A stretch of DNA of 64,000 bases. Source: Phycisphaeraceae bacterium (GTDB lineage Bacteria > Planctomycetota > Phycisphaerae > Phycisphaerales > Phycisphaeraceae). The stretch covers positions 62,001 through 126,000 of the forward strand of contig JADZCR010000006.1 of NCBI GenBank assembly GCA_020851465.1. The letters are read 5' to 3'. Shown here in pieces: positions 3,328-41,643 of the stretch. The first letter of the stretch is position 1. Every line of letters starts with the position of its first letter. The notes under the pieces are model-generated. The model worked only from the letters and a program-made list of their open reading frames with translations. It was not told the DNA's origin and ran no database searches. The translations under genes and the position numbers were made by a program.

Positions 3328-3359
3328 GCATCGACGCGCCGCGAAGCGGTCTCGGCAGC

Positions 3360-4346: not shown

Positions 4347-4379
4347 TGCCGACGTACAGCGTTGAGAAAGTACGCTTGT

Positions 4380-4451: not shown

Positions 4452-4456
4452 TTGAT

Positions 4457-4494
4457 AAAGACCCGGTGCCTGACGGTGCCGGGTCTTTTATTTT
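4457..4494 (+). terminator. Rho-independent terminator after tRNA-Gly
   Basis: Ten-base stem AAAGACCCGG (4457-4466) with CCGGGTCTTT (4479-4488). The loop can pair further, and a T-rich tract TTTATTTT follows. Confidence 0.85.
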
Positions 4495-4601
4495 GGTACT
4501 TTGAAGCAGTTCTGGATCACAGGTTGCGTCCTTCGCATTTCACCGGCGGGCGGCGCATCGAGATTTCGCAAACCGCCTCATGACGGCTGTGGAGAACCGT
4601 T

Positions 4602-5336
4602 TTGCATCAACCTAAAACCGTGGTGCTGTTTTCCGGCGGCATCGACTCGACCACGATGCTCTTTCACCTGCGACAGGCCGGCCACGAAGTGCTTGCCTTG
4701 TGTGTGGACTACGGCCAACGTCATCGCACGGAGCTGTCACGAGCTGCTCGGATCGCTGAGGCATGGTCGATCCCGCTTGAGACCGCCGACCTCCGCGCGA
4801 TCACCCGTCTGCTCGCGGGATCAAGTCAGACCGATCCTGCGGTTCAGGTTCCGCTGGGACACTACACCGATGAGTCGATGAAGGCCACCGTCGTTCCCAA
4901 CCGCAACATGATCATGCTCGCGGTTGCGGCAGGCTGGGCGATTACGCAGCAGGCATCGGCAGTCGCTTACGGAGCGCATTCCGGCGATCACGCCATATAC
5001 CCGGATTGTCGACCGCAGTTTGCTGACGCACTTGCGCTTGCCATCAGCCTCTGCGATTGGCGCAGCGTGGAACTCATCCGGCCGTTTGTGAACATGAGCA
5101 AAACGCAAATCGTCACCCTTGGCCACAGCCTCGGAGTCCCGTTCGCCAGGACATGGAGCTGTTATCAAGGCGAATCGTTGCATTGCGGCGCGTGCGGGAC
5201 TTGTATCGAGCGGCGTGAGGCATTTTTGCTGGCAGGTGTGCCCGATCCGACGGACTACAGCGAAAATGCGCCTGCGATGTCACCTCGCGGTGATGTGGAT
5301 TGGAGTCGGACGATTACGGGAAAGGTTCGCGCATGA
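4602..5336 (+). CDS. queC: 7-cyano-7-deazaguanine synthase QueC
   Basis: Converts 7-carboxy-7-deazaguanine to preQ0 with ATP and ammonia in queuosine biosynthesis. The 244-residue protein has the PP-loop SGGIDST at residues 11-17, the family segment VDYGQRH at about 35-41, and the C-terminal zinc site made of C187, C195, C198 and C201. Length is normal for QueC. The start is TTG at 4602; it is supported by GGAG at 4591-4594 and by the family N-terminus, which begins just before the PP-loop. No queD, queE or queF is next to it. The downstream enzyme tgt lies at 43.3 kb in this window, so the pathway genes are scattered. Confidence 0.96.
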   Translation: MHQPKTVVLFSGGIDSTTMLFHLRQAGHEVLALCVDYGQRHRTELSRAARIAEAWSIPLETADLRAITRLLAGSSQTDPAVQVPLGHYTDESMKATVVPNRNMIMLAVAAGWAITQQASAVAYGAHSGDHAIYPDCRPQFADALALAISLCDWRSVELIRPFVNMSKTQIVTLGHSLGVPFARTWSCYQGESLHCGACGTCIERREAFLLAGVPDPTDYSENAPAMSPRGDVDWSRTITGKVRA

Positions 5337-5419
5337 TCTCTCATCTCACGAGCGATAATACTTGAAGGCGGGGTTGTGTTGCCGATTTCGCGGGCTTACC
5401 AATCCACGGTTGATGGGAA

Positions 5420-6250
5420 TTAGTTGCCGTTGGCTTTCACCGCACGGATGAACTCGTGATCATCGAAAACAAAGCCGAATGCCAGTGCTACGCGCCACAG
5501 GGCGATCTCTTTGCAAACTTCACGTCGAGCGGTCTCTTTGTTTTCGACAGCGGTGACCGCTTGGCGGATTGTTGAGCACATGATGGAGCGAGAAGACATG
5601 TCTGCCATGCCGCCGGGCGAGAGCAGCAGGCACCAGTTGATGGCAAAGCCGATATAAACCAGGTGATTGATGCCGTCGGCGGCACAGAGGCCTGCGAGTT
5701 GGTCTGCGTTTTCCGCGATGCCTTCGCTACCCTGAGGCCGGGCCTCTTCCATGAAATCAATATCCTTGAATCCACGGTTCACGTCGTTGACGTTGTGAGC
5801 ACCGACGAACGAATGTTCGTTGCGGAACTGTTGTACCGCAGCCATCAGTGGATCATCAAAACGAATTCGCTGTGGTTTAGGTTGATGATTTGCCAGAGAG
5901 GTGGCACGCTGGTAGCCGGGTAAATTCTGATAGGTATTTCCACCGCCGACCACGTGGTAGAGGGTCATCCCCGACTCGCGGACAGCACGAAGGAGCGGCG
6001 GGAAAACGGTCCTGGCGATTTTCGTTGCGCGGGGGATGTATTCGACACAGCGATACCAGCCGGGGAACTGCTCCGGCGTGCCACAGTCCCACGCGTGCAT
6101 AACCACCATCGCGGTGCGGCGGCGATCAAAGGTCAATTCCGCTTCCTTCCATCCGCCGTAGCCTTCTCCGGACACGTCGAGTGTCAGGTCCGCGTCGAAT
6201 TGCTGGTAGTAACCAGCCCGTATGCGAAGGTGATTTTTATCCATGGTCAT
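5420..6250 (-). CDS. Isochorismatase-like cysteine hydrolase
   Basis: A 276-residue protein of the isochorismatase-like fold. The central strand RRTAMVVMHAWDCG stands where relatives carry the first catalytic Asp, and the presumed nucleophile is the Cys in GFAINWCLLLSPGGMADM, which matches the family pattern of a strand ending in N-x-C. The first acidic residue is not in its usual place (VVMH instead of VVxD), although an Asp follows three residues later, so the catalytic triad is not certain. The open frame continues 41 codons upstream, but the segment there is Arg/Phe-rich and unlike the family. I placed the start at the ATG at 6248-6250, where AGG precedes; ATG at 6242-6244 is equally possible. 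The reaction is unknown. Converges with queC. Confidence 0.75.
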   Translation of the reverse strand: MTMDKNHLRIRAGYYQQFDADLTLDVSGEGYGGWKEAELTFDRRRTAMVVMHAWDCGTPEQFPGWYRCVEYIPRATKIARTVFPPLLRAVRESGMTLYHVVGGGNTYQNLPGYQRATSLANHQPKPQRIRFDDPLMAAVQQFRNEHSFVGAHNVNDVNRGFKDIDFMEEARPQGSEGIAENADQLAGLCAADGINHLVYIGFAINWCLLLSPGGMADMSSRSIMCSTIRQAVTAVENKETARREVCKEIALWRVALAFGFVFDDHEFIRAVKANGN

Positions 6251-6571
6251 CAGCCTATTAAATCGCGCAATGGTATCGAAACCACGAAATCTGTGTGAAT
6301 GGTCAAAATTGCTGGTTATGCAGCGTGTGAAGCGGAATCGTAACGGTTGATGCGGATAGTCAATGGTTCTCAATAAAAGAATATCTGGATCAAAAAATAT
6401 GTAATATGGATAGACCCCTTGGGACCGAATCAGGAACGCGAGTAGCTCGCCGCGCGAACCGCGACACCGGGGGGCGAAAGGAAAGACTAATCGAGAATGG
6501 TCACGTTTTCCGCCGCAGTGAAGTAAGTGGATTCAGAAGTATCAGTTAACCACTACAGGAGTCAGTTCGTC

Positions 6572-6964
6572 ATGACAACAGCAGCTACAGGAAATTGGCA
6601 TGAGGTTTTGGAAAAGACCGAATGGGTTGCAATCGTGACATGGGATGGCCAGCAGGCACACACCGTCGCCAACTGGGGAGACTACGTCCGAAAACTGAGC
6701 GATGCCGGCTCCGACACGCTGGTGATGCCTGCCGGCCGATACCATCAGACGGAGTCCAATCTACGACGTGACAAGCGCGTGCAGGTGATCCTCGCATCGC
6801 GGCAAGTCAACGGCAGCCGCGGCACCCCCGGCCAAGGTTACCTGCTCGAAGGCGAGGGAGACGTTGAGCTTGAGGGCGAGTTTGCCAAACGAGCCAAGGC
6901 TGCCTATCCCTGGGCGCGCGGAGCATTGATCCTGCGCATTCGTTCCGCCCAGGCTCAACTCTGA
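6572..6964 (+). CDS. Pyridoxamine 5'-phosphate oxidase-like FMN-binding protein
   Basis: A 130-residue single-domain protein with the split-barrel pattern of small PNPOx-like flavoproteins. The first strands read TEWVAIVTWD and AHTVANWGDYV, followed by the flavin-phosphate-type stretch DTLVMPAGRYHQTESNLRRDKRVQVILASRQV and a short C-terminal half with GQGYLLEGEGDVEL. The start at 6572 is supported by AGGAG at 6557-6561. Members of this family bind FMN or F420 or reduce small quinone-like compounds; the substrate cannot be told. It stands alone between two oppositely oriented or distant genes. Confidence 0.7.
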   Translation: MTTAATGNWHEVLEKTEWVAIVTWDGQQAHTVANWGDYVRKLSDAGSDTLVMPAGRYHQTESNLRRDKRVQVILASRQVNGSRGTPGQGYLLEGEGDVELEGEFAKRAKAAYPWARGALILRIRSAQAQL

Positions 6965-7187
6965 GGTTGATGCCTCTCTGCGCGTTGACTCTGACTTATG
7001 TCTGGATGTCGTGATACGACGCTTTTTCGCTGCACACGTTGTTACGTCAGAATGGCGTGAATCAACGGTGGGTGGTGATGGCGGCATCCGTTGGCGCAGC
7101 GACGAGTAACTCGATTCAATGGATGCTCTCAAAGTCTGGTGAACGACCCAGCCACAAAGTCTCGTCGTTCAATTATGTCACGACAAG

Positions 7188-7224
7188 TGGTATAATCGGT
7201 CGTATCATGTCCGCTACGACATGA
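7188..7224 (+). promoter_or_regulatory. Extended -10 promoter followed by a 7-base inverted repeat
   Basis: TG at 7188-7189 plus a perfect TATAAT at 7191-7196 form an extended -10 element; a recognisable -35 is lacking (TTCAAT at 7168-7173). Transcription would begin near 7203. Directly there lies a perfect inverted repeat TCATGTC (7205-7211) / GACATGA (7218-7224) with a six-base spacer, well placed for an operator or leader hairpin for the lyase gene at 7255. Confidence 0.55.
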
Positions 7225-7254
7225 TTATTGTTACTGCGCATTGGAAGCTCATTC

Positions 7255-9411
7255 ATGACATTTCAATTCGGAATCGCCAGAAGTCTCTATAAGGCACATC
7301 GTCATCCACGGTTGCTCTGCGATGAAGCTGACCTTGAACGGATCAAAAAACAGGTCCGCACCGGTCAGGGCAAGAAGATTTATTCAGAGTTTCGCCGCAA
7401 AGTTCGGGTGATGGTCGAAGCGATTGAAGATCATCCCGATAAGTTGGCACCGCTGATCGGTCATCTGCAGATCCGTAAAGATCCCCGTGGCGTTCAGGTC
7501 GTGGGATCACTTCCAGATATAGCACTGGTTGGCATTCTTGAAAACGATCAACGCGCGATGCGAGCTATCCGACGGGTACTCGTAGGTATTCCTGATGCGG
7601 ATGCGGAGGGACCAAACGACAGCTATAGCCTGTCCTTTGCTAACTTCGGCACGATCGCCCCGGCTTACGATCTGGCGTACAACGCGATGACTCCCGACGA
7701 GCGGGCGATTTTCTGTCGTTGGGCGGTGGATCAGTCGGTCAGAGGCAGTCTCGAAAGAATCACAAAAAATAACTTTCTCCGTTCCTCTGCGCACAACCAA
7801 TGCATGGTCGGTCTTTTCAGTTCACTGCCGACACTGCTGGCGATCGAAGGTGATCCGGGAGTTCCCGATCTCAGTACGGAAAAGGCTGCGTTGCTTCAGT
7901 ATTTCGAGGCGTCGGTTTACGCATCGCTTGGGCCGGGCGGGTATCCCAATGAGGACATCGGCTATGGCACTGCGATGGTCTGTTACATGGCTCGCGTCGC
8001 CGAGGCAGTGCGTCGCGCGGGGCTTTTTGATGTTTACACGCAGTGTCCTCGCTACACGCGCTTTGGCCAGGCTTTGCTGCACTTCATCCAGCCGTGGGGT
8101 ACTTATACATCGAACACTGGCGATTACGGTGCGGACTTTGGCCCGCGCAGCATGGTGCTGCCACGACTGGCGACGGAGACGAATGACCCGACGATTTTAT
8201 GGCTGTCGAGCACATTGACGTATCCCATTGCCAGCGCGTGGGCCGGCAACATGAAGCGATATCGCGGAACTTTTCCTGAAGTGGAGTTGTCTCCGGGTAA
8301 TCGCGCGTGTGTAGATACGTATGCACTACTGACGCTTGATGACCTCAAAAAGCCGGTCCATCCATCGAAAGCTCGCAAGTCGATTCCGACGCAGTTCATG
8401 GACCCGCAGCGAGGGATCGTTACTTTCCGCAGCAGTTGGAAGAATGATGCAACCTTCGTCGTGTTCGACGGCTCACAGCGCAGCCCATCCTCAGCAGGAC
8501 ACGAACACGACAGCGGCGGACATTTCAGCATCTCCGCACTCGGTGAGTATTTTGCGATCGACACCGGTCGGTACAACATCGAACAGGATCAACACAATCT
8601 GGTGCTCATGGAGGGCAAGAGCGGCCAATCCACCGGCGGGGATTGGCGGATGAGCTACTACCACGCGGTGCTCACCGGATATCACCCCGGCAAGTTTGTG
8701 GACACCGCCTCGGTGGACAACTCGCACCAGAGCAACTGCTACTGGTCCTATCGCACGCTGGGGCTGGTCAAGGGCACGCATCCTTACGTCTGGATCGCGG
8801 ACGACGTCAATGCGGACCACTGCATGAAGGGGCCTCGTGAGTTCTGGTGGACGATGAACGTCAACCCGAACCACAAAATCAAGATCAACGGCGATTCTGC
8901 CACGGTCGTGGGTAATGACCATGGCAACATGCTCGATGTCCACTTCTCGCTGCCGTGTAGCGGTAATTACCCGACACCTCACAAGCTTTCATTGGAGCAG
9001 GATGTCAAGCTCGCCGGTTCTCAGAATTATCTCGGACCTGATGCGCTCGATCTTGCCCGGAAATATTCGAAGACCATCGGTAACCTGCAATATGGCCCCG
9101 TGTTCGCACGGCCGCGACTCATCGGTAAGGTTCACGGTTACAACGGCCGTTTCCTCTCGATCATGATTCCACGACGGAAGAGAGAAAAGCCTGCAAAAGT
9201 GGAGCAACTTCCGACATTAGACAACGCGCTGGCGGTACGCATCACCTTCAACGATGTTCAGGACACCCTGATCTGGGCGTATGAACACGGCCTGCTGGAA
9301 GCCGGCGATGTCAAAGCTCGCGGACAATGGATCGTGGTACGAAAGTCACGGCGCACCGGCCGGCTGATTGATGTCGCGATCGGTGGGAAGGATGGATATC
9401 TCCTCAAATAG
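7255..9411 (+). CDS. Heparinase II/III-like polysaccharide lyase
   Basis: A 718-residue protein with the two-part layout of chondroitin/alginate-type lyases. Residues about 20-350 are helical (alpha/alpha toroid; HNQCMVGLFSSLP, then GPGGYPNEDIGYGTAM). Residues about 390-640 are a beta-sandwich with the heparinase II/III signature region GHEHDSGGHFSISALGEYFAIDTGRYN, which resembles the metal- and substrate-binding part of the family. Such enzymes cleave uronic-acid-containing polysaccharides by beta-elimination. There is no evident signal peptide, so the site of action is uncertain. The start at ATG 7255 has GGAAG seven bases before it; a TTG nine codons earlier is less likely. Neighbours are also of carbohydrate type. 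The exact substrate cannot be read from the sequence. Confidence 0.75.
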   Translation: MTFQFGIARSLYKAHRHPRLLCDEADLERIKKQVRTGQGKKIYSEFRRKVRVMVEAIEDHPDKLAPLIGHLQIRKDPRGVQVVGSLPDIALVGILENDQRAMRAIRRVLVGIPDADAEGPNDSYSLSFANFGTIAPAYDLAYNAMTPDERAIFCRWAVDQSVRGSLERITKNNFLRSSAHNQCMVGLFSSLPTLLAIEGDPGVPDLSTEKAALLQYFEASVYASLGPGGYPNEDIGYGTAMVCYMARVAEAVRRAGLFDVYTQCPRYTRFGQALLHFIQPWGTYTSNTGDYGADFGPRSMVLPRLATETNDPTILWLSSTLTYPIASAWAGNMKRYRGTFPEVELSPGNRACVDTYALLTLDDLKKPVHPSKARKSIPTQFMDPQRGIVTFRSSWKNDATFVVFDGSQRSPSSAGHEHDSGGHFSISALGEYFAIDTGRYNIEQDQHNLVLMEGKSGQSTGGDWRMSYYHAVLTGYHPGKFVDTASVDNSHQSNCYWSYRTLGLVKGTHPYVWIADDVNADHCMKGPREFWWTMNVNPNHKIKINGDSATVVGNDHGNMLDVHFSLPCSGNYPTPHKLSLEQDVKLAGSQNYLGPDALDLARKYSKTIGNLQYGPVFARPRLIGKVHGYNGRFLSIMIPRRKREKPAKVEQLPTLDNALAVRITFNDVQDTLIWAYEHGLLEAGDVKARGQWIVVRKSRRTGRLIDVAIGGKDGYLLK

Positions 9412-9443
9412 AAGCAGGGGTACTGCTGCTGGATGATTGCTCG

Positions 9444-9471
9444 CATCCGAAGGGATGCAGCGTCATTTTTT
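9444..9471. terminator. Possible terminator between converging genes
   Basis: Hairpin GCATCC (9444-9449) / GGATGC (9454-9459) followed on the plus strand by a T-run ending near 9471. It overlaps the stop of the minus-strand gene. The stem is only six bases, so this is a weak call. Confidence 0.4.
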
Positions 9472-11457
9472 CATCAAGCCCTTCAGACAGCCTTCGAGGA
9501 CGATGACTTCTTTTGGTGACACGGCATAGACGGTTTCATCTTCCACCGCGATGAGGTGATCGTGACTCTGAAGAAGCAAGGCCACCACTTCCGGTTTTCG
9601 CATATCCCAAAGCTCGATGGCTTTTGTACGGTTGAGGACGAAATAACCCGGCACACCTGCCCAGTGCATGTAACCGAACCCCTCCGGCACTTGTCGCAGC
9701 TCCGAAGGCTTGGGTACTTCCCACGTCTTGAGATCCAGGACAAACCATCTTTGCCCACCTCCGAAAGACCCATTCAGCTGGCAAAGGAACTTTCCGCTTC
9801 CCATGGGACCGCGCACATGGACATATTCGGTTCCGGCCGGCGCTTCGACATGGCGCATGACCTTCAATGTCTCCGGATCGATCTGCGCGATCATGCATCG
9901 TTCCATGGTGGGCGGGCAGCTCTGGCAATCCGCGTGGCGCGTAGTGCCGGCAATGATCGATTTCGATGAACGGTCGTAGAACAGCGACACGATCTGCTGA
10001 TCGGGTAGAGGATTTTGTGAATAGGTGGCGATGCCTGTGCGGGTGTCATACCGAGTAAGCACGGAGCCGAGAGAGCCGTAGGTGACGCTGCACGAGTAAA
10101 AGATTCGTCGGCCGTCGTCCGTCTTGCCGACGGGTCGCATACCTTCGGGGGGATCAGCGACCACGCGAGGATTTTCCGGGAAGCGGGCCGGCTTGGCGGG
10201 GTCATATTCCATCAGCTCGCCGCCGGTGTAGGCACTCATGTAAACCTTCTTGCCTATTTTCCACGTCTGCAAGATCTCGCCGAATCCGGGCGCAGCCCGG
10301 CCGCAATCCACTCCTTTTTTCGTTTTGAGATTGACTTCCCAGAATCGCTGCGTGATGAAAGGCGTTCCCAGTACGCGGTCGCGGTCGATGCGTTGAATGC
10401 AGTCCGTGGTACCCCAGGAACAGGTGGGGAGCTGCTTGCATAGTTCGAGTGCGCCGGTGTGAGCATCGAATCTCTTGAACTCACCGTATAAGCCGACAAA
10501 AACGATCTTCCCTGACCGCGTCAGGTTGATATTGAAAGCCTGTGCGGCGCCGGGACGGCAAAGATTTTTCACCTCACCGGTGGTCATATCCCAGCGACCA
10601 ACGGATGTTTCTCCCGATTCAATCACCACACCCCATGCGATTTTTCCCTGACGTGCGAACCAGGACATCTCACGCATGGGCTTTGGGCCTGTCTGGTCGA
10701 ACGTATCGGTACGGCCGTCGTACCAACCGCAGCCATCTCTGGGGATGTAAGCTCGTCCCTGCTCGTCGGTGATGACACGATAGATGGTTCCGCCGGACAA
10801 GTCGTGGACATCGATCGATTCGGCGTATTTCCGAAGCGTCACTTTTTCGCTGACCGGATCCCACCGCGCCATGGTCTCGCCGGGACAGGCGAGCAGCAGC
10901 GTCCACGTCCCGTCTCCATTGGGAAAGCTGGTTCGGGCGTAGTGGTCGAGCGTATCGAGCTGATGGACCTTGATCGGTTTACGTTTGCGTATGTCGAAGG
11001 AGAAGCCGACCGTATGAGGCGGCGGGAAGGCGACCGCAAAGAGCTTGCCGTGATCGCGGTCAATAATCATGCCTTGAAAGTTGAGCGCAGCCGGCGCACC
11101 GGTTTCGTAAATCTCCGTTTTGCCGCTCTTGAGTGAAAGTCGTTCGACGCGAGAAAGGTTACCGCACAGCCAGAGAGTGTCAGCATCTTCCTGAGCCGCA
11201 CTGTAGAAACCACCTCGCGTCCAGTTTCCATTGGAAGGAAACCGGTACACCCTCGTGTCGCCGTCTTCATTGACCAGCACAGCAAGTGGGCCGACGTTGG
11301 CGTTCCACGTAGAGATCCAGAAGCGATCTTTGCCTTTTTCATCAGGCCCCAGCGAGATCAATGGGGTGTTGATGAAAGGGTCAGGAGAAGCTGGGATCGA
11401 TGCCCGGAGGACTTTGGAGCGGATGGTACGGGAACGCGGCGCGTTACGGGTTGACAT
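9463..11457 (-). CDS. Large beta-propeller protein of unknown function
   Basis: A 664-residue protein built from repeated four-strand blades with no recognised catalytic domain. Repeats show patterns such as RFWISTWNANVGPLAVLV, DTLWLCGNLSRVERL, GRAYIPRDGCGWYDGRTD and FYSCSVTYGSLGSVLTRYDTRTG. This fits a seven- or eight-bladed propeller like those of PQQ/WD40-type or streptogramin-lyase-like proteins. No signal peptide is apparent; the N-terminus is Arg/Ser-rich. The start at 11457 has AGGAG seven bases upstream. A Cys cluster (HADCQSCPPTMERC) near residue 535 could bind metal. It converges on the lyase gene, and planctomycete propellers of this kind often sit beside polysaccharide lyases, which suggests a role with oligosaccharides; that is context only. 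Confidence 0.6.
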   Translation of the reverse strand: MSTRNAPRSRTIRSKVLRASIPASPDPFINTPLISLGPDEKGKDRFWISTWNANVGPLAVLVNEDGDTRVYRFPSNGNWTRGGFYSAAQEDADTLWLCGNLSRVERLSLKSGKTEIYETGAPAALNFQGMIIDRDHGKLFAVAFPPPHTVGFSFDIRKRKPIKVHQLDTLDHYARTSFPNGDGTWTLLLACPGETMARWDPVSEKVTLRKYAESIDVHDLSGGTIYRVITDEQGRAYIPRDGCGWYDGRTDTFDQTGPKPMREMSWFARQGKIAWGVVIESGETSVGRWDMTTGEVKNLCRPGAAQAFNINLTRSGKIVFVGLYGEFKRFDAHTGALELCKQLPTCSWGTTDCIQRIDRDRVLGTPFITQRFWEVNLKTKKGVDCGRAAPGFGEILQTWKIGKKVYMSAYTGGELMEYDPAKPARFPENPRVVADPPEGMRPVGKTDDGRRIFYSCSVTYGSLGSVLTRYDTRTGIATYSQNPLPDQQIVSLFYDRSSKSIIAGTTRHADCQSCPPTMERCMIAQIDPETLKVMRHVEAPAGTEYVHVRGPMGSGKFLCQLNGSFGGGQRWFVLDLKTWEVPKPSELRQVPEGFGYMHWAGVPGYFVLNRTKAIELWDMRKPEVVALLLQSHDHLIAVEDETVYAVSPKEVIVLEGCLKGLMKK

Positions 11458-30258: not shown

Positions 30259-32199
30259 TCAACGTCCCTGCACCGCGGCCCGTTCCGCGTTGCTGCTGTT
30301 CATCACCTTGTTGATCCGCGCCGCGACGATACCGGCCTGCTTGTCCATATCGAGATCCTTCAATAAGTCTCGATATCGCCGGCCGACTTGATACCAGTTG
30401 CTTTGCTTGCGGAATTCCGGCGACATAGGACCGGGTTCTTCACACTTGGCCCACGTCTGATCGTAAAGGAGCGGGATTTTCTTTTCCTGGTTGCTGTCGC
30501 GTAACAAAGTCTCGGTTTTTTCCAGCGCGACGAGGATGAACGGACCGGCATTGACGTAACGGTTGATGATGTCTTCGTAACACTTTCCCGCTTTCTTGAT
30601 ATCGCCGGCTTTTTCCCACATCGCCGCCTGCGCCATGCGGGTTTCTGCGCAAAGGTCCGCACGGCTACCCATCATCTTGAAGACGGTCTCCCAGAGAGCG
30701 TTCTGTTCCTCGATATCGGGTACGGTCTCGACCATCGGCTTGAGAATTTCAAGAGTGAAATCGGGATAATCCTTGCCGCAGAGTTTGTTGAGCGTGTCCG
30801 CCCAGCGTCGCTTTTGCTCGAGCGACATTCGGCCGGATTTCGCAAGCTCACGGATTCCGAACCAGCCGTATGCGTAACCGGGTGATTGCCGTAGGCCTGC
30901 TTCGAGCAAGGTAAGCTCACTTTCGAGTCCAGGACGGCGCGGCAGAGTGTCGGCAAGCGGGGGAACTTCATCCTTGCCGTTTGTCGCTTTATTGGCTGCT
31001 TGATTCCCCGTCGGTTTACTTGCGGAGGTTTGCGGTTGAGAGGTTGATACCAACAGCGGCGGGGGAGAGAATTCCGCTTTATTATTTTCGAGTGACATAA
31101 GCCGTGCAGCGGCGTCGGTGAATGCGACTGCCGCTTGTCGTTGCGGTTCCTTCGTGCCGATGAGTTCAGCGGTCAACCCCACCAATGCATCGGGAATCAT
31201 TTTGCCTGTTTGCGGGTCGAGGACGACGCCGCGGATCGTCGTGAAATTACTGTAGCGACCGGTTCTGAAATTCCACGCACCGCGGGTGCCTTTTGCCTGA
31301 AGATATCCGACCCAGGCATGACCGATCTCCGAGCTTTGGCCGACGGTGTAGGCAGTCGGCACACCGATCGCTTTACCGACGGATGAGGCGAAATAGGCCT
31401 GATCGGCGCAGACTCCGCCGTATTGAAGAATGTTGGGCAGATTGAAGCCGCGTCTCGTCACTTCCTTAGGTGTGTTTTGGAAGTAATGGCTGTAGTCGTA
31501 TTTGATGGAGTAGAAAAGTTGACCTACTGCGGAATTACCCTTGTATTTATTGAGTGCCCACTGCATTTCACGGATCGACGCGGTTGAGTCCACGACAAAG
31601 ACAAGCATTTCAGTCGGCACATACTTGAGGCCAAAAAGCATCTGCCCCTCGTGATCGGTAAAAAAGTCAAAGAGGGCGACGGGATCGGGAGCCTTGACTT
31701 CATTTTCGTTGATTTGCCGGGAAAGCTCCTGATCGTGAACGACGCATATCGCGGCAGTCAGTGTGTGGAACGGATCGAGCTGCTTTTCGTGCGTTTTGCG
31801 GAGTTTATTCAGGAGCTGGTAAACAGCATCGAGGTGATCTTCGGGGCGTACCGCAAATACCACGGCTCGCGCCAGGTCGGGATTAGCTCGCAGATAGCGG
31901 AGCATCTCCACGCGGTCGAAGTCAGGACCGGAGCCGACTTGTGACAGTTGTGCAGCTAATCGTCTCGCGCTGGCGACCTCAACAAACGTATTGGTTTCAG
32001 TGATGGGTACATGCGCGATGACCTGATCGAACAGCCTGCCCAGTTGGCGCGCAGCCAAAGCGAGATCTTTGGATGACTCAGCCGCGTCGAGGATCTGATC
32101 GATGCGTTGACGAACTACAGGGAGCGATTCCGCACGGGTAGCGGCGGTGATCACATGATAGAGCACAAGGCTCATCATCACGCACAGGAGATGGCGCAT
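30259..32199 (-). CDS. Secreted transglutaminase-like protein with TPR-type C-terminus
   Basis: A 646-residue exported protein with a signal peptide ending near TRAE (residue 24). A helical region (30-220) precedes a transglutaminase-like core with the putative nucleophile C264 in GGVCADQAYFASSVGKAIG and H294 in EIGHAWVGYL. The third member would be Asn310 or a nearby residue (GAWNFRTGR), as no Asp is in the usual place. A Gln/Ser/Thr/Pro-rich linker lies near residues 390-425, and the rest (430-640) is helical with TPR-like spacing. Such proteins are often cysteine peptidases or cross-linking enzymes of the envelope. The gene may be leaderless (see the -10 element at 32206). Its neighbours do not define a role. 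Confidence 0.65.
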   Translation of the reverse strand: MRHLLCVMMSLVLYHVITAATRAESLPVVRQRIDQILDAAESSKDLALAARQLGRLFDQVIAHVPITETNTFVEVASARRLAAQLSQVGSGPDFDRVEMLRYLRANPDLARAVVFAVRPEDHLDAVYQLLNKLRKTHEKQLDPFHTLTAAICVVHDQELSRQINENEVKAPDPVALFDFFTDHEGQMLFGLKYVPTEMLVFVVDSTASIREMQWALNKYKGNSAVGQLFYSIKYDYSHYFQNTPKEVTRRGFNLPNILQYGGVCADQAYFASSVGKAIGVPTAYTVGQSSEIGHAWVGYLQAKGTRGAWNFRTGRYSNFTTIRGVVLDPQTGKMIPDALVGLTAELIGTKEPQRQAAVAFTDAAARLMSLENNKAEFSPPPLLVSTSQPQTSASKPTGNQAANKATNGKDEVPPLADTLPRRPGLESELTLLEAGLRQSPGYAYGWFGIRELAKSGRMSLEQKRRWADTLNKLCGKDYPDFTLEILKPMVETVPDIEEQNALWETVFKMMGSRADLCAETRMAQAAMWEKAGDIKKAGKCYEDIINRYVNAGPFILVALEKTETLLRDSNQEKKIPLLYDQTWAKCEEPGPMSPEFRKQSNWYQVGRRYRDLLKDLDMDKQAGIVAARINKVMNSSNAERAAVQGR

Positions 32200-33708: not shown

Positions 33709-34869
33709 ATGTTCTGGTTTGGATTTGCTGATACGTCGAATACGCCTGAAAAGCCCGATGCTGCGCCCGCGGAGTCGGGATTGCCCACACGGTCGGAAGA
33801 GCGTGTCAACGTCGGCGAAGAGGTCAATGATGTTATTACTGCGCTCCTGCCGTGGGGCATTTCGATTCTGCTGCACGCAGGCATCATTCTCATTGCGGTT
33901 TTCGCAGTTTACACCGTGACTGAAATTAATCAGGAAGGCGATAACGAAGAAGTTATTATCCCCATCGCGAGGCTGGGTGACACGCCCGGCGGGTCGTTAA
34001 CCATGGGTAGTGATGCGAACTCAGTCAGCTCAGGGCTGAGCACCTCGGCAGCACCCTCGCGGTCCACCTCATCTTCCAGTTCGACATCAATTTTTTCGCG
34101 TTCGTCGGCGGGAGTCGGTGGCGCGGGTATGGGCACAGGGCCAGGGTCAGGCGGCGGCAGCGGTGGGGGTAGCGGTGGCGGTACCGGCTCCGGTGTCGGC
34201 GGCGCGGGCTGGGGTGGCGGGGCACTCGGCTCAGGTGGCGGCGGCGGTGGCGGTGGAAAGGGCAGCCCCTTTGGTTCAGGCGTTGGCGGCGGCGGTGGCG
34301 GGCCTAAGGCGAAATTCTTCGGTTCCGGCGGTAACGCGCGAAAGGTCGTTTATCTCATCGACGCATCCGGCTCGCTCATCGACACACTACCGTTTGTTAT
34401 CGCCGAACTGAAGCGATCCATCGGCGAACTCAGCGATGCGCAGTCGTTCACTGTGATCTTTTTCCAGGGGACTCAGGTCATCGAACCTCCACCTGCCGGA
34501 ATGCGCAAAGCAACCACCGACAAGCGACAGGCGGTTATTCAGTGGATCGACCCCAAAGCCGGCAACATTGTGCCAATGGGTCTGGCGGAGCCGATCGACG
34601 CTCTCAAGCGAGCCCTCTCCTACAAGCCCGACTTGCTGTTTATTCTTTCTGACAACATCACGGGACAGGGTGTTTATGAAGTAGATCAGAAGCGATTGCT
34701 TGCCGACATCCAGGCAGCCAACCGTAGCGGCACAAAGATCAACACCATCCAGTTCCTCTATCCCGACCGGCTTACATCTTACGGCATGAAGGGAACGCTG
34801 GAACTCATCAGCGAGCGGAGTGGCGGAATCTATAAGTTCCTCGATGCGAAGGAACTGGGTATTCAGTAA
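33709..34869 (+). CDS. TonB-like anchor with periplasmic von Willebrand A domain
   Basis: A 386-residue inner-membrane protein. Residues 1-45 are cytoplasmic; one transmembrane helix spans about 46-70 and contains S52-I-L-L-H56, the SxxxH arrangement that TonB and TolA use to engage ExbB/ExbD or TolQ/TolR. Residues 100-135 are Ser-rich and 136-200 almost pure Gly/Ser, a long flexible linker in the place of TonB's Pro-rich one. Residues 211-386 form a VWA domain with the metal motif D218-A-S220-G-S222 and a later Asp in FILSDNITGQG (315). Other folds for the C-terminal domain are unlikely. The ExbB and ExbD genes lie downstream on the same strand. I infer that it transmits proton-motive work to a periplasmic or outer-membrane partner, with VWA as the gripping domain. 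AGGAG at 33698 supports the start. Confidence 0.8.
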   Translation: MFWFGFADTSNTPEKPDAAPAESGLPTRSEERVNVGEEVNDVITALLPWGISILLHAGIILIAVFAVYTVTEINQEGDNEEVIIPIARLGDTPGGSLTMGSDANSVSSGLSTSAAPSRSTSSSSSTSIFSRSSAGVGGAGMGTGPGSGGGSGGGSGGGTGSGVGGAGWGGGALGSGGGGGGGGKGSPFGSGVGGGGGGPKAKFFGSGGNARKVVYLIDASGSLIDTLPFVIAELKRSIGELSDAQSFTVIFFQGTQVIEPPPAGMRKATTDKRQAVIQWIDPKAGNIVPMGLAEPIDALKRALSYKPDLLFILSDNITGQGVYEVDQKRLLADIQAANRSGTKINTIQFLYPDRLTSYGMKGTLELISERSGGIYKFLDAKELGIQ

Positions 34870-35288
34870 TTTAAGGTTAACGAAGCCGAACGTGCCGTGC
34901 AGAGGGGACGATTCACGATCTGACGCGTCATCGGCAGGTGATCGCAGCGTCGGATCGAGAGTGGATCGCAGAAAAAGCTCTCTAAAAGTATTCAGCGACG
35001 AGCGTATTTTCACCACGCGTTTGCATTACCTCCGCGTAGTCTCCGCGTCGATTGATTGATGATCCGCCAGAGTATTCAACCAGACTGCCCGCGATTTGCG
35101 TGTCTCACCTTATTTGGTGGAATCTCCAGATAAGGTTTCGTCGTATTATTGGTTGGTTCGGATTGGCTCCAACGCAACTTGGAACCCTGATAAACTGCCG
35201 TTAAAAGAGGAGCAGGGTGCGAAAGGGTAATCTACCGGCTGTTCAACAGGCTGCATGAGGTAACGACGGTAACACTGGGCAATCCATC
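34870..35288. other. Intergenic region, 419 bases
   Basis: No gene is seen. It holds two short inverted repeats: ACCTTAT (35107-35113) / ATAAGGT (35130-35136) and TCCAA (35168-35172) / TTGGA (35179-35183). Either could be a binding site for the downstream gene. No convincing terminator was found, so readthrough from the VWA gene is possible. Confidence 0.4.
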
Positions 35289-36449
35289 ATGAGCAAAACT
35301 ATTCAGCAACGGTATCGGCGTGCTGCGTCCATCTGGGTCGCGTTAGCGGTCGCTTTCAGTCTGACATGCACTGCTGAGGCAGACTCCCTCAAAATCGCGG
35401 GCAGCTGGTTGAATGATGTGACGATCCAGAGCGTTAAGGACGGCCAACTCATTTATGTCTCGCCTACCGGTGCGGAAGTCGAGAAATCGCTCGCCGAAAT
35501 AGAAGGAATCAAGTTAACGGGACAAGCTGATCTTGAAGCCGCACAAAAAGCCGCCGATGTCGGTGATGTGAAGGGCGCCAACTCGTCGTATCAGAAAGCT
35601 CTGACGGTTGCGCGGCATCCGTGGCTCAAGCGTTGGATTTCTAGCCAGTTGATGGCATTCAACGAAGCAAACCACCAGCCGGTGGAGGCTGTGGATGCGT
35701 ACCTTGCTCTGGCGAAGGATGAGAAGGCCGAATCATTTTTCTTTGCCAAGCCGCCCGTGAAATCGTTGGCCGCTGCAAGTGCGGAACAAAAGGCGGAAAT
35801 TCGCAAACGGCTCACCGAGGCGAAAGAGGCCGTCACAGGCAAAGAAGCATCAGACGGTTTGGCGAAAATGATCGAAGCGGTAGGGGCACAGGCGGCATCG
35901 GCTTCCACGCCTTCACCAACGAATAGCACCAGTAGTAATGAGACCCCACCAGGGGCATCCGGACCCGCACCAGCCTCGGTTATTCCTCTGCCCAAAGCAC
36001 TGCCTGAAAATGATCCCGTCGCGGAACTGCTCCGTGCGGGAAAGTTTGAGGAAGCCTTGGCTGAGGTTAATAAGAAACTCGATGAGCCTGTACCCGTTGG
36101 ACAGGCACCGCAGACCTCGCGGCAGCTTTATGAGCGAGGGATCGCGCAATTCAATCTGGCGGAAAAAGCAAGCGGCTCCGCGCAGGAAAATCTCTATCTG
36201 GATGCCGGCTTGAGCTTCATGCGGGTTGTCATTCATTTTCCGCGTAATACGACTTGGGTTGGCCCCGCATTGATTGAGGCGGGGGCGGTCCACGATAAGA
36301 TTGGCCGCCGCGATATCGCGATGGGGCTATGGGATCGGGCGCGAAACATGATTAATCCCGATGATGATCCGGCATTAATGGCACGGTTAGAAAAGTTGAT
36401 TGCTGGCGATGCGCATGAGGAACCGCCCGCGACCCCGCCGACGGAGTAG
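35289..36449 (+). CDS. Secreted TPR-like protein of the ExbBD locus
   Basis: A 386-residue exported protein. The signal peptide covers residues 1-31 (WVALAVAFSLTCTAEA). Residues 34-75 form a small beta unit (SWLNDVTIQSVKDGQLIYVSP) that resembles the short SH3-like domain found at the start of several planctomycete TPR proteins. Residues 80-200 and 240-375 are helical with TPR-like features (AGKFEEALAEVNKKL, FNLAEKASGSAQENLYLDAGL), separated by a Ser/Thr/Pro-rich linker at 205-235. It probably works as a periplasmic protein-protein scaffold for the proton-channel complex encoded next. Spacing to exbB is 155 bases. The ribosome site is weak. Confidence 0.7.
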   Translation: MSKTIQQRYRRAASIWVALAVAFSLTCTAEADSLKIAGSWLNDVTIQSVKDGQLIYVSPTGAEVEKSLAEIEGIKLTGQADLEAAQKAADVGDVKGANSSYQKALTVARHPWLKRWISSQLMAFNEANHQPVEAVDAYLALAKDEKAESFFFAKPPVKSLAAASAEQKAEIRKRLTEAKEAVTGKEASDGLAKMIEAVGAQAASASTPSPTNSTSSNETPPGASGPAPASVIPLPKALPENDPVAELLRAGKFEEALAEVNKKLDEPVPVGQAPQTSRQLYERGIAQFNLAEKASGSAQENLYLDAGLSFMRVVIHFPRNTTWVGPALIEAGAVHDKIGRRDIAMGLWDRARNMINPDDDPALMARLEKLIAGDAHEEPPATPPTE

Positions 36450-36604
36450 TAGCGTTGCTGGAGAAGGTTGGGTGGTCGTCCCCATTAACCGCTTGTACGT
36501 CTCCCGCCGTTGGACCCTGTTCGTAAGCGTTTGTAGAATCTCGGTTCTCGATGAATCACGATCGACGATACAGTCGTGATTGTCTGATCAAAAAAGGAGC
36601 ACGC

Positions 36605-37438
36605 ATGTCGAAACGTAAGAACTTCGTTCTCTCACTCTGGGCGGCGGCGTTGGCGATTGCCTTTTGCCTGATGCAGGTCGCGCCGGTCCTTGCGCAGGAA
36701 GAAGCGGCGGAGCACAAGCCCAAAGGCTTCTTCCAGAAGTTCATGATGGTCGCCGACGAGCAAGGGATTGAGTTCATCGGTACCGCGGTTATCTGGGCCT
36801 GCTTTCTGATCTCGATCGTCATTATCTCGTTGATTATCCAGGCAGCCTTAAAAACTCGAAAAGCGGTGTACACACCGGGCACGCTGGTCGATACGCTCGA
36901 CCGCCTGATTGCGGAGAAGAACTTCAAGGAAGCGATCGAAGTTGCCAACAGCGATCCAAGCCCGTTCGGTCACATCATGCGACATGCACTCGCCGAAGCT
37001 CCTCGCGGATATCCGGCGATGGAGGCGGCGATCGAGGAGACTGCTGACAACATCAACAACCGTCGCGTCCGCAGTTTTGTGTGGCTTGAGCTTGCCGGTG
37101 CCGCCGGCCCGATGATCGGTCTCTTCGGAACGGTGTACGGCATGATCGTTTCGTTTAATAAGCTGGTCGAAGCAGGCGGTACGCCCAAGGCTTCGGCTCT
37201 GGCGGGCGGTATCGCGACCGCGCTGGTGTGTACCTTCTGGGGGCTGATCGTCGGTATTCCGGGCGTTATCACCGCGTCACTCTTCCGCGTCATGACCGAA
37301 GGCCGTACCGCTGAGGCGATCGCGGCTGCCAAGCAGCTCATCGCGCCGTTCCGGCCCGGTGCGGGTAAGTCGTCGAAGCCCTCGACTCCCGCTCCCAGTG
37401 CTGCGCCGGCGACACCTAAGCCCGTCACTGCGACCTGA
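36605..37438 (+). CDS. exbB: MotA/TolQ/ExbB-family proton channel with signal peptide
   Basis: A 277-residue inner-membrane protein. A cleavable signal peptide (to about residue 31, VLAQ) precedes three membrane spans at about 57-82, 160-185 and 198-228. The core GAAGPMIGLFGTVYGMIVSFNKL and the last span GGIATALVCTFWGLIVGIPG match ExbB. In the last span the Glu of E. coli ExbB (GIAEAL) is T205, while the Thr (ATA) is kept as T210. A Ser/Pro/Ala-rich tail (250-277) extends the cytoplasmic end. AGGAG supports the start at 36605, and the 18 upstream codons of open frame are discarded. It forms the stator with the two ExbD proteins that follow. Confidence 0.92.
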   Translation: MSKRKNFVLSLWAAALAIAFCLMQVAPVLAQEEAAEHKPKGFFQKFMMVADEQGIEFIGTAVIWACFLISIVIISLIIQAALKTRKAVYTPGTLVDTLDRLIAEKNFKEAIEVANSDPSPFGHIMRHALAEAPRGYPAMEAAIEETADNINNRRVRSFVWLELAGAAGPMIGLFGTVYGMIVSFNKLVEAGGTPKASALAGGIATALVCTFWGLIVGIPGVITASLFRVMTEGRTAEAIAAAKQLIAPFRPGAGKSSKPSTPAPSAAPATPKPVTAT

Positions 37439-37542
37439 GTCAGGTTTGGCAACCACCACGGCGTGAACTTGCCTCACGCTGGCGTCGTCTTAATTAATAA
37501 GTTTCCTTGACTTGATTCCTTGGTTTCACCCTGATTTTCACC

Positions 37543-38037
37543 ATGGCGAAGCGCAAGAAAACCGAGCTGCCCAAGGCGGAACTCAACATCACGTCCATGA
37601 TGGATCTGGTGTTGAATCTGCTAATGTTTTTCGTGCTGCTGGCGAATTTTTCGATGGCGGAGCTTCCGCCGATGACTCCGCCCAATCCACTTTCGTCAGA
37701 AGCGCGCCCCAGCGTTGAACCTGACAAGGTCACTGTAAACATCATCCCGGAGCTTGACGCAAGCGGCCAACCAACCGGGGCGGCACGGGCGATCAAGTTT
37801 GGCTCCAATCAGGAGCTGGCTCCACAGGAAACCGCCCGACTGACGCAACTGCTTGCTTACGAACGCGAAAAATCACTGCGTGATGTAAAAGAAAAAGATC
37901 GTTCCGCCGCACGCGGTGTCACCGTGGATCTCCGTGCTGATCAAGCTCTCCGTTACGATCAGGTGCAGCCGGTGATGGCTGCGATCCAGCGGGCGGGTAT
38001 ACGACAGATCAATCTGGTGGCCGCAGTGAAAAACTGA
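37543..38037 (+). CDS. exbD: Biopolymer transport protein ExbD, first copy
   Basis: A 164-residue single-span protein. The N-terminus is basic. The transmembrane helix at about 18-38 (TSMMDLVLNLLMFFVLLANF) carries the essential Asp at D21, the proton carrier of ExbD/TolR. A periplasmic domain follows after a Pro-rich linker (ELPPMTPPNPL), including the dimer-forming part VDLRADQALRYDQVQPVMAAIQ, which matches the ExbD C-terminal domain. No ribosome site is clear at ATG 37543. It is 51 bases before the second exbD, and the two proteins differ, so they may form a heteromer. Confidence 0.92.
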   Translation: MAKRKKTELPKAELNITSMMDLVLNLLMFFVLLANFSMAELPPMTPPNPLSSEARPSVEPDKVTVNIIPELDASGQPTGAARAIKFGSNQELAPQETARLTQLLAYEREKSLRDVKEKDRSAARGVTVDLRADQALRYDQVQPVMAAIQRAGIRQINLVAAVKN

Positions 38038-38088
38038 ACCCGGTATTCGCGCCGTTGCCGCACAGTAACCGGTAGTCCTGGAGAAACG

Positions 38089-38652
38089 ATGTCAGTCACT
38101 CCTCCCAAGTCGAATCAGCCGCATGAGTCGCAGGCCGCCGCACACGAGGAGGCGCCCAAGCGAGTCAAAAAACATAATCCCAATATTCGTGTGGCAGCAC
38201 TCAACATTACGTCCTTCATGGATTTGACGTTTAACCTGCTGCTGTTCTTCGTGCTCACCGCCAATTTCGCCTCTGCCGAAGGTGTGCTGTTGGCCACGCT
38301 ACCCAAAGGCAGCGGGGGCGGCGGCGAAGCGATACTCGATACCCCTGACGAGACCCCGCCTGATGATCGTCCGCCCGTTCGCATTTTCCTCCAGGCGGTG
38401 CCCGGTGCCGGTCAGTCCGCATTCATCCGCATCGAAGGCGTACCCACGAGTCCGGGTCAGGATTATGAGCAGTTTTACCAGATGCTCAAGCAATGGCGAC
38501 GGGATCCGAGCAACCCCAACGGCGCGTATGAGCCGGACCAGCCGATCAACATTCAACCTGACCGAAACTGTTCGTGGAATGACGTGGTGAACGCATTCAA
38601 TGCCGCCATTCGCGCTAAATACACGAGTGTCGGCCTGTTGCCAGCGTCGTAA
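38089..38652 (+). CDS. Biopolymer transport protein ExbD, second copy
   Basis: A 187-residue second ExbD-type protein. The cytoplasmic segment (1-38) is longer and polar; the helix at about 41-60 holds D45 in TSFMDLTFNLLLFFVLTANF. The periplasmic region has an acidic, Pro-rich linker (TPDETPPDDRPPV) and a domain ending CSWNDVVNAFNAAIRAKYTSVGLLP, which corresponds to the last strand and helix of ExbD. GGAG six bases before the ATG supports the start. With exbB and the first exbD it gives a channel with two distinct ExbD chains. Confidence 0.92.
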   Translation: MSVTPPKSNQPHESQAAAHEEAPKRVKKHNPNIRVAALNITSFMDLTFNLLLFFVLTANFASAEGVLLATLPKGSGGGGEAILDTPDETPPDDRPPVRIFLQAVPGAGQSAFIRIEGVPTSPGQDYEQFYQMLKQWRRDPSNPNGAYEPDQPINIQPDRNCSWNDVVNAFNAAIRAKYTSVGLLPAS

Positions 38653-38712
38653 CGCGCACCTGTCACTCCGCGAGGGAAACCGGAAGGATCCGAATAGCTG
38701 TTCGAGCCATCC

Positions 38713-41643
38713 ATGAAGCATATTGCCCGCTTAGTCGTCGCCGTTACTTTGTTCACCGCTTTGATGGTGCAGCCTGCTTTCGCACAACTCTCCCGTCTCG
38801 ATAAAAACACACTGGTCGATGGACTTCGCCGGGAAAAGATGGGCGAGTTGTTAAAGCATCTGGCCGAGACGGATCCGCAGTTTAAGACCGACAAGATGTT
38901 CGCAAGCAACGTGTTGATCGCGCAGCTCATGCTCGATTACACGATCAAGGGAACAGCTGCAGGACAGGAACCCGACCCGGTCAAGGCCGCCGAACTGCGT
39001 CAGGAAGCACTCGATGCATTTACCCAGGCTCTTGATGCGCGACGTAAACTCATCGCGGATTTCAGGGATAACGATCAGCGGCCGATTTTCCAGACCCAGC
39101 TTGCTGAGCAGATTCTGTTCGACGGTCTGCAAAACGAACAATTTGCCGCGGAGTTTTATGACGTAGGTGTCCCCACGCAGGCCCAGCGTGATCGATTTGA
39201 AAAACTGGTGGCGGAAGCTCTGGTCTCCCTCACGGATGCAGACCTTCGATTTTTTTACCTTCAGGGGCAACTGCCAAAAGAAAAAGATCACGTCGATAAG
39301 CGGGTCAACACCGGTTTGTGGGATCGGATGATTAACGATTACTACAAACTGCGCACTCAGCTTTTCCTGGCGCAGGCGGCCTATTACACAGCTTTGCTTC
39401 CCGACAGCCATCCGTACTACCAGAATCTGGGCAAGGATCCGCTGATCGGCGCTGTGCAGAAAAAGACACCCGCGGAGGAGCGGGCGCGTCTGCTGGCACT
39501 GGTTGTCGAACGCAGTCAGCCCTTCATTGACGATAAGAGTGATAAGTTCGAGATTCGTCGTGAGTCGATGTCGATTGTCGCACGGGCATTGGTGCAGGCG
39601 GGAAAAACCGCCGAAGCCACCGCCATGCTTGATGAATTGCTTGCCCCGTCAACCGAACAGAATGATCTGATCAATCTGGTGTTGACAGCAAAGAAGTCGC
39701 AGCTTCTCGATGCGACAAAGCAATCCGATGCTGCGATCCAGTTGTTGCACGACCGGGCGTTGCGTCCGCCAGCGGGTAATTCGCCGACAGGATTGCTGTT
39801 TCGTTTGCTGCTCGTTGATGCGGAGCACCGCATACTTCGTCGTGCCGCCGAGGCCGCCCCGCCCGATAAGCGAATGGCCGAGATGGACAGGGCATATCGT
39901 GTCTATTTGAGATTTCTCGACGATCCCGCGATTGGTGAAAACAAAGAGCCGCTGCGGATGTACATCTATCGCCGTTGGGAGGCGAACATTCCCGCCGGTG
40001 CAGACCTGACGAGTCTTCCTCCCGTGGTCGTCGGTTCAGTGGCGGAAATGGCGAGACTAGCCGGCGCGGACCTGCTTGCCGAAGGTAAGCCGGAAGAAGC
40101 GCAGAAGAAATTTGAGCGCAGCGTTGAGGTCGCCAATAAACTTCTAGAGCGAAAGCAGCTCGATCCAGCCGTCGAAGCTAACGCGCTCTACAGCAAAGCC
40201 TACGCGACCTATGTTCTTAATCAGAGCAACGATCTCAAAAAGCTGGAAGTCATCGGCATCATCACCGACATGGCTGAGCGATTTCCGCGACAGCCGTTGT
40301 CGGAATCGGCGATCGGAAGTGATGCTGTTCCGTTGGCGCGTTACATGTTCGAGCAGGAAAATCATCCTTCCGCCACAGGTGAAGTCTATGACAAGGCGAT
40401 GAAAGTTCTGCTCAAGAATTACGGAGTCAGCAAGGCCGCGGATGATCAACGCCTGCCCTATGCGGAATTGATCCTCCTGCCGCAGGGACGCTATGTAGAA
40501 GTTGCGGATGTACTCAAGGGAGTGCCTCGTACGCATCCGGATTATTTCCCCTCGCAACGGCTGCGTGTTTTCTCGATGCTCCAGGTTTGGCGCGAAGCGG
40601 TCAAACCTCAGCCGGAGAGCACCCAGCCGCCTGCGCCTGTCGAAGGGCAGACAGCCGTTGCTCCGCCCAAGCCGGAGGAGCTTGCCAAGGCAACGACGGA
40701 AGCCGCATTGCAGCTCATGCAGGAAGCCGACGCAGCACTTGCCGGAGCACAGGATCAGGAAACTCGCAAGCGCATCCTCCAGGCTGCCGGTTGGTCACGG
40801 CTGGTTCTTTTTGATGTCTCCGTCGAAGCGGACAAGGACATTCCGAAGGGACTCGAATACTTCCGGGATTTCGATCGTATTTTCGCCACGGACAAGGAAT
40901 TGATCAGTCAGATGCTTCAGCGGCGGATCACCGCTTACCTGAACATCGATCGTATTGATGACGCGGTATCGGAAGCGTCATATATGTTTGATAACTTTCC
41001 TGATGCCGCTGCGCCTGTCGTCGAGCAGGTTGTCGCCAAGCTCGATACGCAGATGGATACGCTCCGCCGCGAAGCCGCTGCGACTAATGTGGACCGCATC
41101 CGTGAAGAAAAGACCGCTCAACGCAAGGCCCGCGCTGATGCAGCGGTGAAGATGTCGGAATTGCTCCTGACTTGGGCGAAGGATCCCAAGAAGGGTTTGA
41201 CGCCTGAGCAAATCCTGCCGGCCCAGTTGACTTATGTGAAGTCTCTTCTGATGGCTGGTCGCCCTGGAGAAGCCCTGACGATCGTCACACCGTTGGAAAA
41301 ACAATTTCCCAAAGAAGCACGAGCGATTCTTTACAAGTCCGACGCCATTTTCGATTCGGGTGACAAGTCGCGGCTGGTTGAGGCTGCCCGTGGCTACTCG
41401 ATGATTGTCAAGGACATCAAGCCCGACAAAGGTGGCGTCTATCCGCCGATCTGGTGGGGAGCGATGCTTCGCCGCCTCCAGATCAATCTGAAACTGGAGG
41501 AAAACGTCGAGGATGTTCCGGTGCGCATCCAGGCACTGCGTCTTCGGGACCCGAATCTGGGCGGTGACCTCTTTAAGAACGACTACGAAACACTCGACGC
41601 CAATGCAAAGCGTTGGATCTCAGCTCATCCCGGGAAGAAGTGA
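38713..41643 (+). CDS. Large secreted TPR-type protein of the ExbBD locus
   Basis: A 976-residue exported protein. The signal peptide ends at AFAQ (residue 25). The rest is almost entirely alpha-helical with repeated motifs of TPR size: ARALVQAGKTAEATAMLDEL, EGKPEEAQKKFERSVEVANKLL, ALIPEQILPAQ-like stretches and MAGRPGEALTIVTPLEKQFP. No enzymatic motif is visible. A Gln/Pro/Ala segment near 635-655 (STQPPAPVEGQTAVAPPKPE) separates two halves. Its position 60 bases after the second exbD suggests the same unit; a role as periplasmic or outer-membrane-facing scaffold is inferred. Length and repeat nature resemble the gliding or TolB-associated TPR proteins of other ExbBD loci, without clear homology. 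Confidence 0.72.
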   Translation: MKHIARLVVAVTLFTALMVQPAFAQLSRLDKNTLVDGLRREKMGELLKHLAETDPQFKTDKMFASNVLIAQLMLDYTIKGTAAGQEPDPVKAAELRQEALDAFTQALDARRKLIADFRDNDQRPIFQTQLAEQILFDGLQNEQFAAEFYDVGVPTQAQRDRFEKLVAEALVSLTDADLRFFYLQGQLPKEKDHVDKRVNTGLWDRMINDYYKLRTQLFLAQAAYYTALLPDSHPYYQNLGKDPLIGAVQKKTPAEERARLLALVVERSQPFIDDKSDKFEIRRESMSIVARALVQAGKTAEATAMLDELLAPSTEQNDLINLVLTAKKSQLLDATKQSDAAIQLLHDRALRPPAGNSPTGLLFRLLLVDAEHRILRRAAEAAPPDKRMAEMDRAYRVYLRFLDDPAIGENKEPLRMYIYRRWEANIPAGADLTSLPPVVVGSVAEMARLAGADLLAEGKPEEAQKKFERSVEVANKLLERKQLDPAVEANALYSKAYATYVLNQSNDLKKLEVIGIITDMAERFPRQPLSESAIGSDAVPLARYMFEQENHPSATGEVYDKAMKVLLKNYGVSKAADDQRLPYAELILLPQGRYVEVADVLKGVPRTHPDYFPSQRLRVFSMLQVWREAVKPQPESTQPPAPVEGQTAVAPPKPEELAKATTEAALQLMQEADAALAGAQDQETRKRILQAAGWSRLVLFDVSVEADKDIPKGLEYFRDFDRIFATDKELISQMLQRRITAYLNIDRIDDAVSEASYMFDNFPDAAAPVVEQVVAKLDTQMDTLRREAAATNVDRIREEKTAQRKARADAAVKMSELLLTWAKDPKKGLTPEQILPAQLTYVKSLLMAGRPGEALTIVTPLEKQFPKEARAILYKSDAIFDSGDKSRLVEAARGYSMIVKDIKPDKGGVYPPIWWGAMLRRLQINLKLEENVEDVPVRIQALRLRDPNLGGDLFKNDYETLDANAKRWISAHPGKK

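Follow-up and report, generated by a model that had tools for sequence, protein, structure and literature searches.

The subject of this analysis is a window of 64,000 nucleotides from a Phycisphaeraceae bacterium (Planctomycetota, class Phycisphaerae; GenBank assembly GCA_020851465.1, contig JADZCR010000006.1). Six genes in this window probably encode a TonB/TolA-like, proton-driven force transducer whose output is a von Willebrand factor type A (vWA) domain. An earlier note on this DNA, accurate in nearly all its sequence details, had proposed a vWA output domain carried by a TonB-like helix that docks on an ExbBD motor. That interpretation is supported in part, with the docking residues conserved and the neighbourhood recurring, but its novelty does not hold: the note knew of no characterised system with such an output, and the class had already been predicted by Williams-Jones et al. 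in 2025 (PMC12204202). The locus is real and belongs to the first vWA transducer family of that work. The six open reading frames (ORFs) all lie on one strand at the positions originally given, and the following features of the module and of its vWA protein carry the argument:

33709-41643, + strand: whole module of six genes, in the order vWA, TPRa, ExbB, ExbD1, ExbD2, TPRb
33709..34869, + strand: predicted vWA force-transducer gene, 386 aa, with a cytoplasmic N-terminus, one transmembrane (TM) helix, a Gly/Ser linker and a vWA domain (from the ORF, the model and PDB folds)
33838..33912, + strand: TM helix, residues 44-68, a helix in the model, with P48, W49, S52 and H56 conserved
33862..33876, + strand: putative S52-x3-H56 motor-docking motif (H56 in 65/65 and S52 in 59/65 relatives; control 3/378)
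33946..33987, + strand: candidate "motor box" strand after the TM helix, EEVIIPIARLGDTP, residues 80-93, with a conserved I/V-I-P-x-A pattern
34003..34320, + strand: Gly/Ser-rich disordered linker, residues 99-204, with a predicted local distance difference test score (pLDDT) mostly <50
34321..34866, + strand: vWA domain, residues 205-386 (VWA_3 in relatives, model and PDB folds)
34360..34374, + strand: DxSxS of the metal-ion-dependent adhesion site (MIDAS), residues D218 (64/65), S220 (61/65) and S222 (62/65)
34651..34653, + strand: MIDAS aspartate D315 (57/65)

The window and 51 more loci (40 genome loci and 11 others, all checked for the whole module) supplied the 65 vWA proteins in which conservation was counted. 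Most of these relatives were retrieved through residues ~177-385 alone, so that the retrieval mostly did not favour any particular N-terminus. Within it, H56 is invariant, and where S52 is absent the residue is Ala or Gly. The S52-I-L-L-H56 motif, the D218/S220/S222 set and D315 are all present as first read, and the two docking residues, whose loss in orthologs would have told against the proposal, are kept. An SxxxH motif lies in the N-terminal hydrophobic segment of 53 of the 59 vWA relatives that have a clear one. In the same loci, it occurs in such a segment in only 3 of 378 other proteins, and in none of 202 ExbB, ExbD and TPR (tetratricopeptide repeat) partners. Conservation and this same-loci control together rule out chance as the origin of the motif. 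Another eleven vWA loci were checked, the majority of them outside this class but within the phylum, and nine (L101-L109) carry SxxxH in the N-terminal helix; of the two without it, one ORF is cut at a contig end and the other encodes a 530-aa vWA protein unlike the family. Three of the nine (L103, L105 and L106; family f48, from another class of the phylum) have no ExbB or ExbD within ~9 kb of the gene for their SxxxH-helix vWA protein, and these may be orphan transducers that borrow a motor.

The model of the vWA protein comprises a helix (residues 35-76), a disordered region (74-199, pLDDT <50) and an alpha/beta domain (212-383). The window protein itself has no Pfam match, including none to a TonB_C or TolA C-terminal domain, while VWA_3 is matched by 10 of the 13 proteins in its alignment. 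A comparison of folds was needed because a profile of the vWA relatives found nothing among PDB sequences. Compared with the PDB, the model matched inter-alpha-inhibitor, ANTXR2 and integrin I domains, with a best E of 5e-9. According to the model, then, a vWA fold takes the place of the TonB/TolA C-terminal domain, and the residues of its predicted metal site are intact.

Planctomycete bacteria share this module as a conserved set of five or six genes. One to three vWA genes, an optional TPRa, ExbB, two or sometimes three ExbDs and TPRb follow one another repeatedly in this order in roughly twelve families of the class, and in 44 of 52 loci (window included) a vWA gene, ExbB, at least two ExbDs and a solenoid gene are found in that sequence. 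Core neighbours lie ≤150 bp apart in 224 of 240 pairs. ExbB is present beside the vWA gene in 50 of the 51 relative loci, and the single exception stops near a contig edge. The neighbourhood is thus shared beyond this genome, and the possibility that it is unique to one genome is ruled out by the recurring order. Comparison of the relative loci found no further conserved genes around the set. Cotranscription of the window genes is likely. The vWA gene is followed by a gap of 419 bp in the window, whereas in several relatives it shares a 4-base overlap with the next gene; promoter and terminator scans gave results at chance level.

Several loci depart from the simple arrangement. Two or three tandem vWA genes precede one motor in L038, L042, L044, L046, L048, L050, L051, L052, L062, L063 and L079, with the His kept in all copies and the Ser lost in a few, which suggests a single motor with alternative arms. 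In L049 (G143:C1:4325000-4344500), two divergent vWA/ExbB/ExbD/TPR modules are found with ~3.5 kb between them. Upstream of the module in the window, a secreted protein with weak similarity to a transglutaminase core (E 0.017) is encoded on the - strand at 30259-32199; this neighbour is not conserved.

The motor itself is made up of one ExbB/TolQ-like subunit and two ExbDs:

36551..37438, + strand: ExbB/TolQ-like channel subunit, 295 aa (PF01618, 3e-23), which aligns with solved ExbB/TolQ and has a probable internal start after a leader
37130..37132, + strand: ExbB T194, equivalent to E. coli ExbB T148 by alignment (52/52)
37232..37234, + strand: ExbB T228, equivalent to E. coli ExbB T181 by alignment (52/52)
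37543..38037, + strand: ExbD1, 164 aa (PF02472, 7e-16), its own lineage in 44/44 loci
37603..37605, + strand: ExbD1 D21, predicted proton-carrying aspartate, which aligns with D25 of solved ExbD
38089..38652, + strand: ExbD2, 187 aa (PF02472, 6e-12), its own lineage in 44/44 loci
38221..38223, + strand: ExbD2 D45, predicted proton-carrying aspartate, at the conserved Asp position

The ExbB assignment is borne out by Pfam, and the probable start of the protein is an internal Met (MSKRKNF, ~residue 19). Both channel threonines are invariant in the 52 ExbB sequences, and the aspartate that matches ExbD D25 is retained in 106 of 107 ExbDs. Pfam likewise supports the claim of two different ExbDs that keep D21 and D45. 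In all 44 loci that have a pair of ExbDs, each first-position ExbD is matched best by another first-position one, and the second position behaves likewise; by this comparison ExbD1 and ExbD2 are two old, separate lineages, and their fixed positions fit an ExbD1-ExbD2 heterodimer. In the solved TonB and TolA complexes, the Ser/His contact network involves, among others, an ExbB TM1 serine and a TM3 proline (PMC12905483). ExbB S88 (51/52 sequences) and P187 (52/52) are plausible counterparts of these docking residues.

Two secreted proteins accompany the motor:

35289..36449, + strand: secreted partner "TPRa", 386 aa, with a signal peptide; conserved in its N-terminal region and helical towards the C-terminus; optional
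38713..41643, + strand: large secreted alpha-solenoid "TPRb", 976 aa, with an all-helical model and TPR families in relatives; usually the last gene

The label of TPR type, given to both in the earlier note, suits the 976-aa protein, for which 8 of 10 relatives match TPR_14 and the model is all-helical (mean pLDDT 87.8), but not the 386-aa partner, which has no Pfam match and whose architecture was read by eye. TPRa is present in about half of the loci, while TPRb is nearly constant. The note's vWA "hand" that would hold both proteins is a possibility backed by their co-occurrence, which for TPRa is incomplete. A fold search with TPRb returned only generic alpha-solenoids with low TM-scores, among them two chains from the periplasmic flagellar scaffold of Campylobacter; these are not taken as homologues.

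Taken together, the proposed mechanism would proceed as follows. An ExbB pentamer would surround one ExbD1-ExbD2 heterodimer, with a proton path via D21/D45 and T194/T228. The vWA protein would dock on the side of ExbB via S52/H56, with ExbB S88 and P187 as likely partners, while its post-TM segment would contact the ExbDs and the flexible linker would deliver the vWA domain to the periplasm. By analogy with TonB and TolA, proton flow through ExbB-ExbD1-ExbD2 would alter the docked helix and the arm; we infer, with good support, that ExbBD passes energy to the vWA arm. The metal site may then grip an acidic ligand on a periplasmic or outer-membrane partner, which motor cycles would pull or release. 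As a near-constant member of the set, the secreted solenoid is the foremost candidate for the gripped partner, or else for a scaffold around that partner. Two observations weigh against this reading. With the spacing taken from PMC12905483, the last two residues of the TonB/TolA SHLS motif, L and S, correspond to A63 and V67 in the window protein, and relatives mostly have A/G and V/T. In addition, the monomer model leaves the motor-box region disordered, with no strand, although the I/V-I-P-x-A pattern is conserved (P85 in 48/65, P93 in 49/65).

The published description matches the locus closely. Williams-Jones et al. (PMC12204202) described vWA force transducers with a TM helix bearing the TonB/TolA His, a disordered linker and a vWA domain. 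Members of their first family, from Planctomycetes among others, have a linker of ~100 residues and a motor-box strand after the TM helix; next to their genes lie a tolQ-like gene, two heterologous tolR genes and a TPR gene. AlphaFold 3 (AF3) models dock the His helix on the motor edge; no phenotype is known, and gliding is proposed as one option (PMC12204202). The window shares the TM helix with conserved Ser/His, the disordered linker, the C-terminal vWA domain and the adjacent tolQ-like gene, tolR-like pair and TPR gene. Unlike in the paper, where the vWA gene is often downstream, that gene stands first here, and Ala and Val replace the L and last S of SHLS, two residues that the paper reports for "many" members and not as obligatory. 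An optional extra secreted partner, tandem vWA copies (in relatives) and a conserved terminal solenoid are further differences. To the published prediction, the present analysis adds the conservation of residues and operon, the intact metal site, the near-universal occurrence in the class and the second vWA system of the genome. The main text of planctomycete and verrucomicrobial essential-gene papers (Planctopirus limnophila, Verrucomicrobium spinosum) does not mention these proteins.

Compared with established systems, the module shares ExbB, ExbD, an SxxxH docking helix and a flexible periplasmic arm with ExbBD-TonB, but has two ExbDs and a vWA protein without a TonB_C domain. The load on the arm has two concrete options, both specific versions of the force-transducer reading: replacement of TolA-TolB, backed by distribution data, and Agl-Glt-like surface work, backed by composition and by CglB. 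In the first, which we regard as unlikely, the module would serve envelope constriction or tethering in place of TolA-TolB, the vWA arm moving an outer-membrane lipoprotein or the solenoid and so stabilising the outer membrane or drawing it inward at division. A vWA match is found in 222 of 248 class genomes, a count of domain similarity, the whole module having been checked in the 51 relative loci. TolB_N was found in none of the 61 class genomes searched, this one included, and TonB_C exceeds the cut-off in 26 of the 61, while OmpA/Pal-type domains occur in 61/61; in this genome, neither TonB_C nor a TonB-dependent receptor plug was detected. Extended to the whole class, as a general envelope motor that does the TolA-TolB job and whose vWA metal site catches and releases an outer-membrane or solenoid partner, the idea is likewise unlikely. 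The resemblance to Tol-Pal (TolQRA-TolB-Pal) lies in a motor with an SxxxH transducer and a periplasmic TPR protein close by; the differences are that a vWA domain replaces TolA domain III, that the operon has no Pal and that TolB_N was not found. This support is one of co-distribution, however, and a diverged TolB or TolA could escape detection; nor is there an OmpA-type gene among the conserved neighbours.

The second option, a machine for surface adhesion or gliding like that of Myxococcus xanthus, with a vWA adhesin complex driven along or through the envelope by the motor, is rather unlikely. AglRQS likewise combines a single TolQ-like protein with two TolR-like ones and has exported TPR partners (PMC3169522), and the vWA surface adhesin CglB is held by the Glt complex (PMC13104615). 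Both systems have vWA and TPR proteins in the output; gliding is also among the options of Williams-Jones et al. (PMC12204202). CglB, however, is a separate protein at the surface, whereas the vWA domain here is, by the model, fused to an inner-membrane docking helix, and neither a Glt-like set nor any other conserved gene is found at the locus.

A quite improbable alternative to force transmission is that the vWA protein docks on ExbBD merely to gate or assemble the motor, as a plug or sensor. SxxxH accounts for docking and proves no force, and the long disordered linker could serve as a tether alone; against this, the three-domain layout is like that of TonB/TolA, the proton residues of the motor are kept, and apart from the secreted solenoid the locus holds no other constant output protein. 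In BatABCDE/MoxR-type systems, vWA and TPR proteins co-occur. A complex of that type simply adjoining exbBD would explain the same co-occurrence here, but it is very improbable and was rejected: no MoxR or Bat gene is conserved nearby, ExbB stands beside the vWA gene in nearly every relative locus, and the docking motif is present. Finally, a vWA helix inside the pore, like that of the TPH-vWA family, the second one in Williams-Jones et al., which also couples vWA to a TolQ-like pentamer (PMC12204202), can be dismissed, as that family has an Asp in its TM helix and no tolR/exbD, whereas here residues 44-68 contain SxxxH and no Asp, and two Asp-bearing ExbDs are present.

A search for other ExbB genes in the same genome led to contig 17, where a second candidate vWA system (L088, G000:C17:140000-156500, 3223-9137, - strand) encodes ExbB, one ExbD, an 883-residue TPR protein and a 611-residue vWA protein with an S-L-M-L-H helix (VWA_3, 5e-14). 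Another genus of the family has the same order with the motif S-V-L-L-H (L100). Since, apart from L100, the class-wide matches of this vWA protein are only 20-28% identical (mostly larger proteins of ~700-900 aa), the contig 17 system may have arisen by its own recruitment of another vWA lineage. A third ExbBD cluster (L087, G000:C5:306000-322000, 5534-11362, - strand) combines ExbB and ExbD with a TPR protein and with a 629-aa protein that has FHA/YscD-like and CBM9-like regions; no TonB-like partner is evident in it. A short ExbB-like gene (L089, G000:C6:362500-379000, 7672-8316, + strand) has no ExbD visible alongside.

To our knowledge, few types of load are known for ExbBD-type proton motors, namely TonB, TolA, MotB, Agl and some others. 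With S52/H56, D218 and D21/D45 conserved, the published prediction comes down to a handful of point mutants. That the genome has a second vWA system hints at repeated recruitment of vWA domains by ExbBD-type motors. If the force-transducer reading is true, a metal-dependent adhesion output, near-universal in a class whose cell biology is unusual, would illustrate how these motors gain new tasks.

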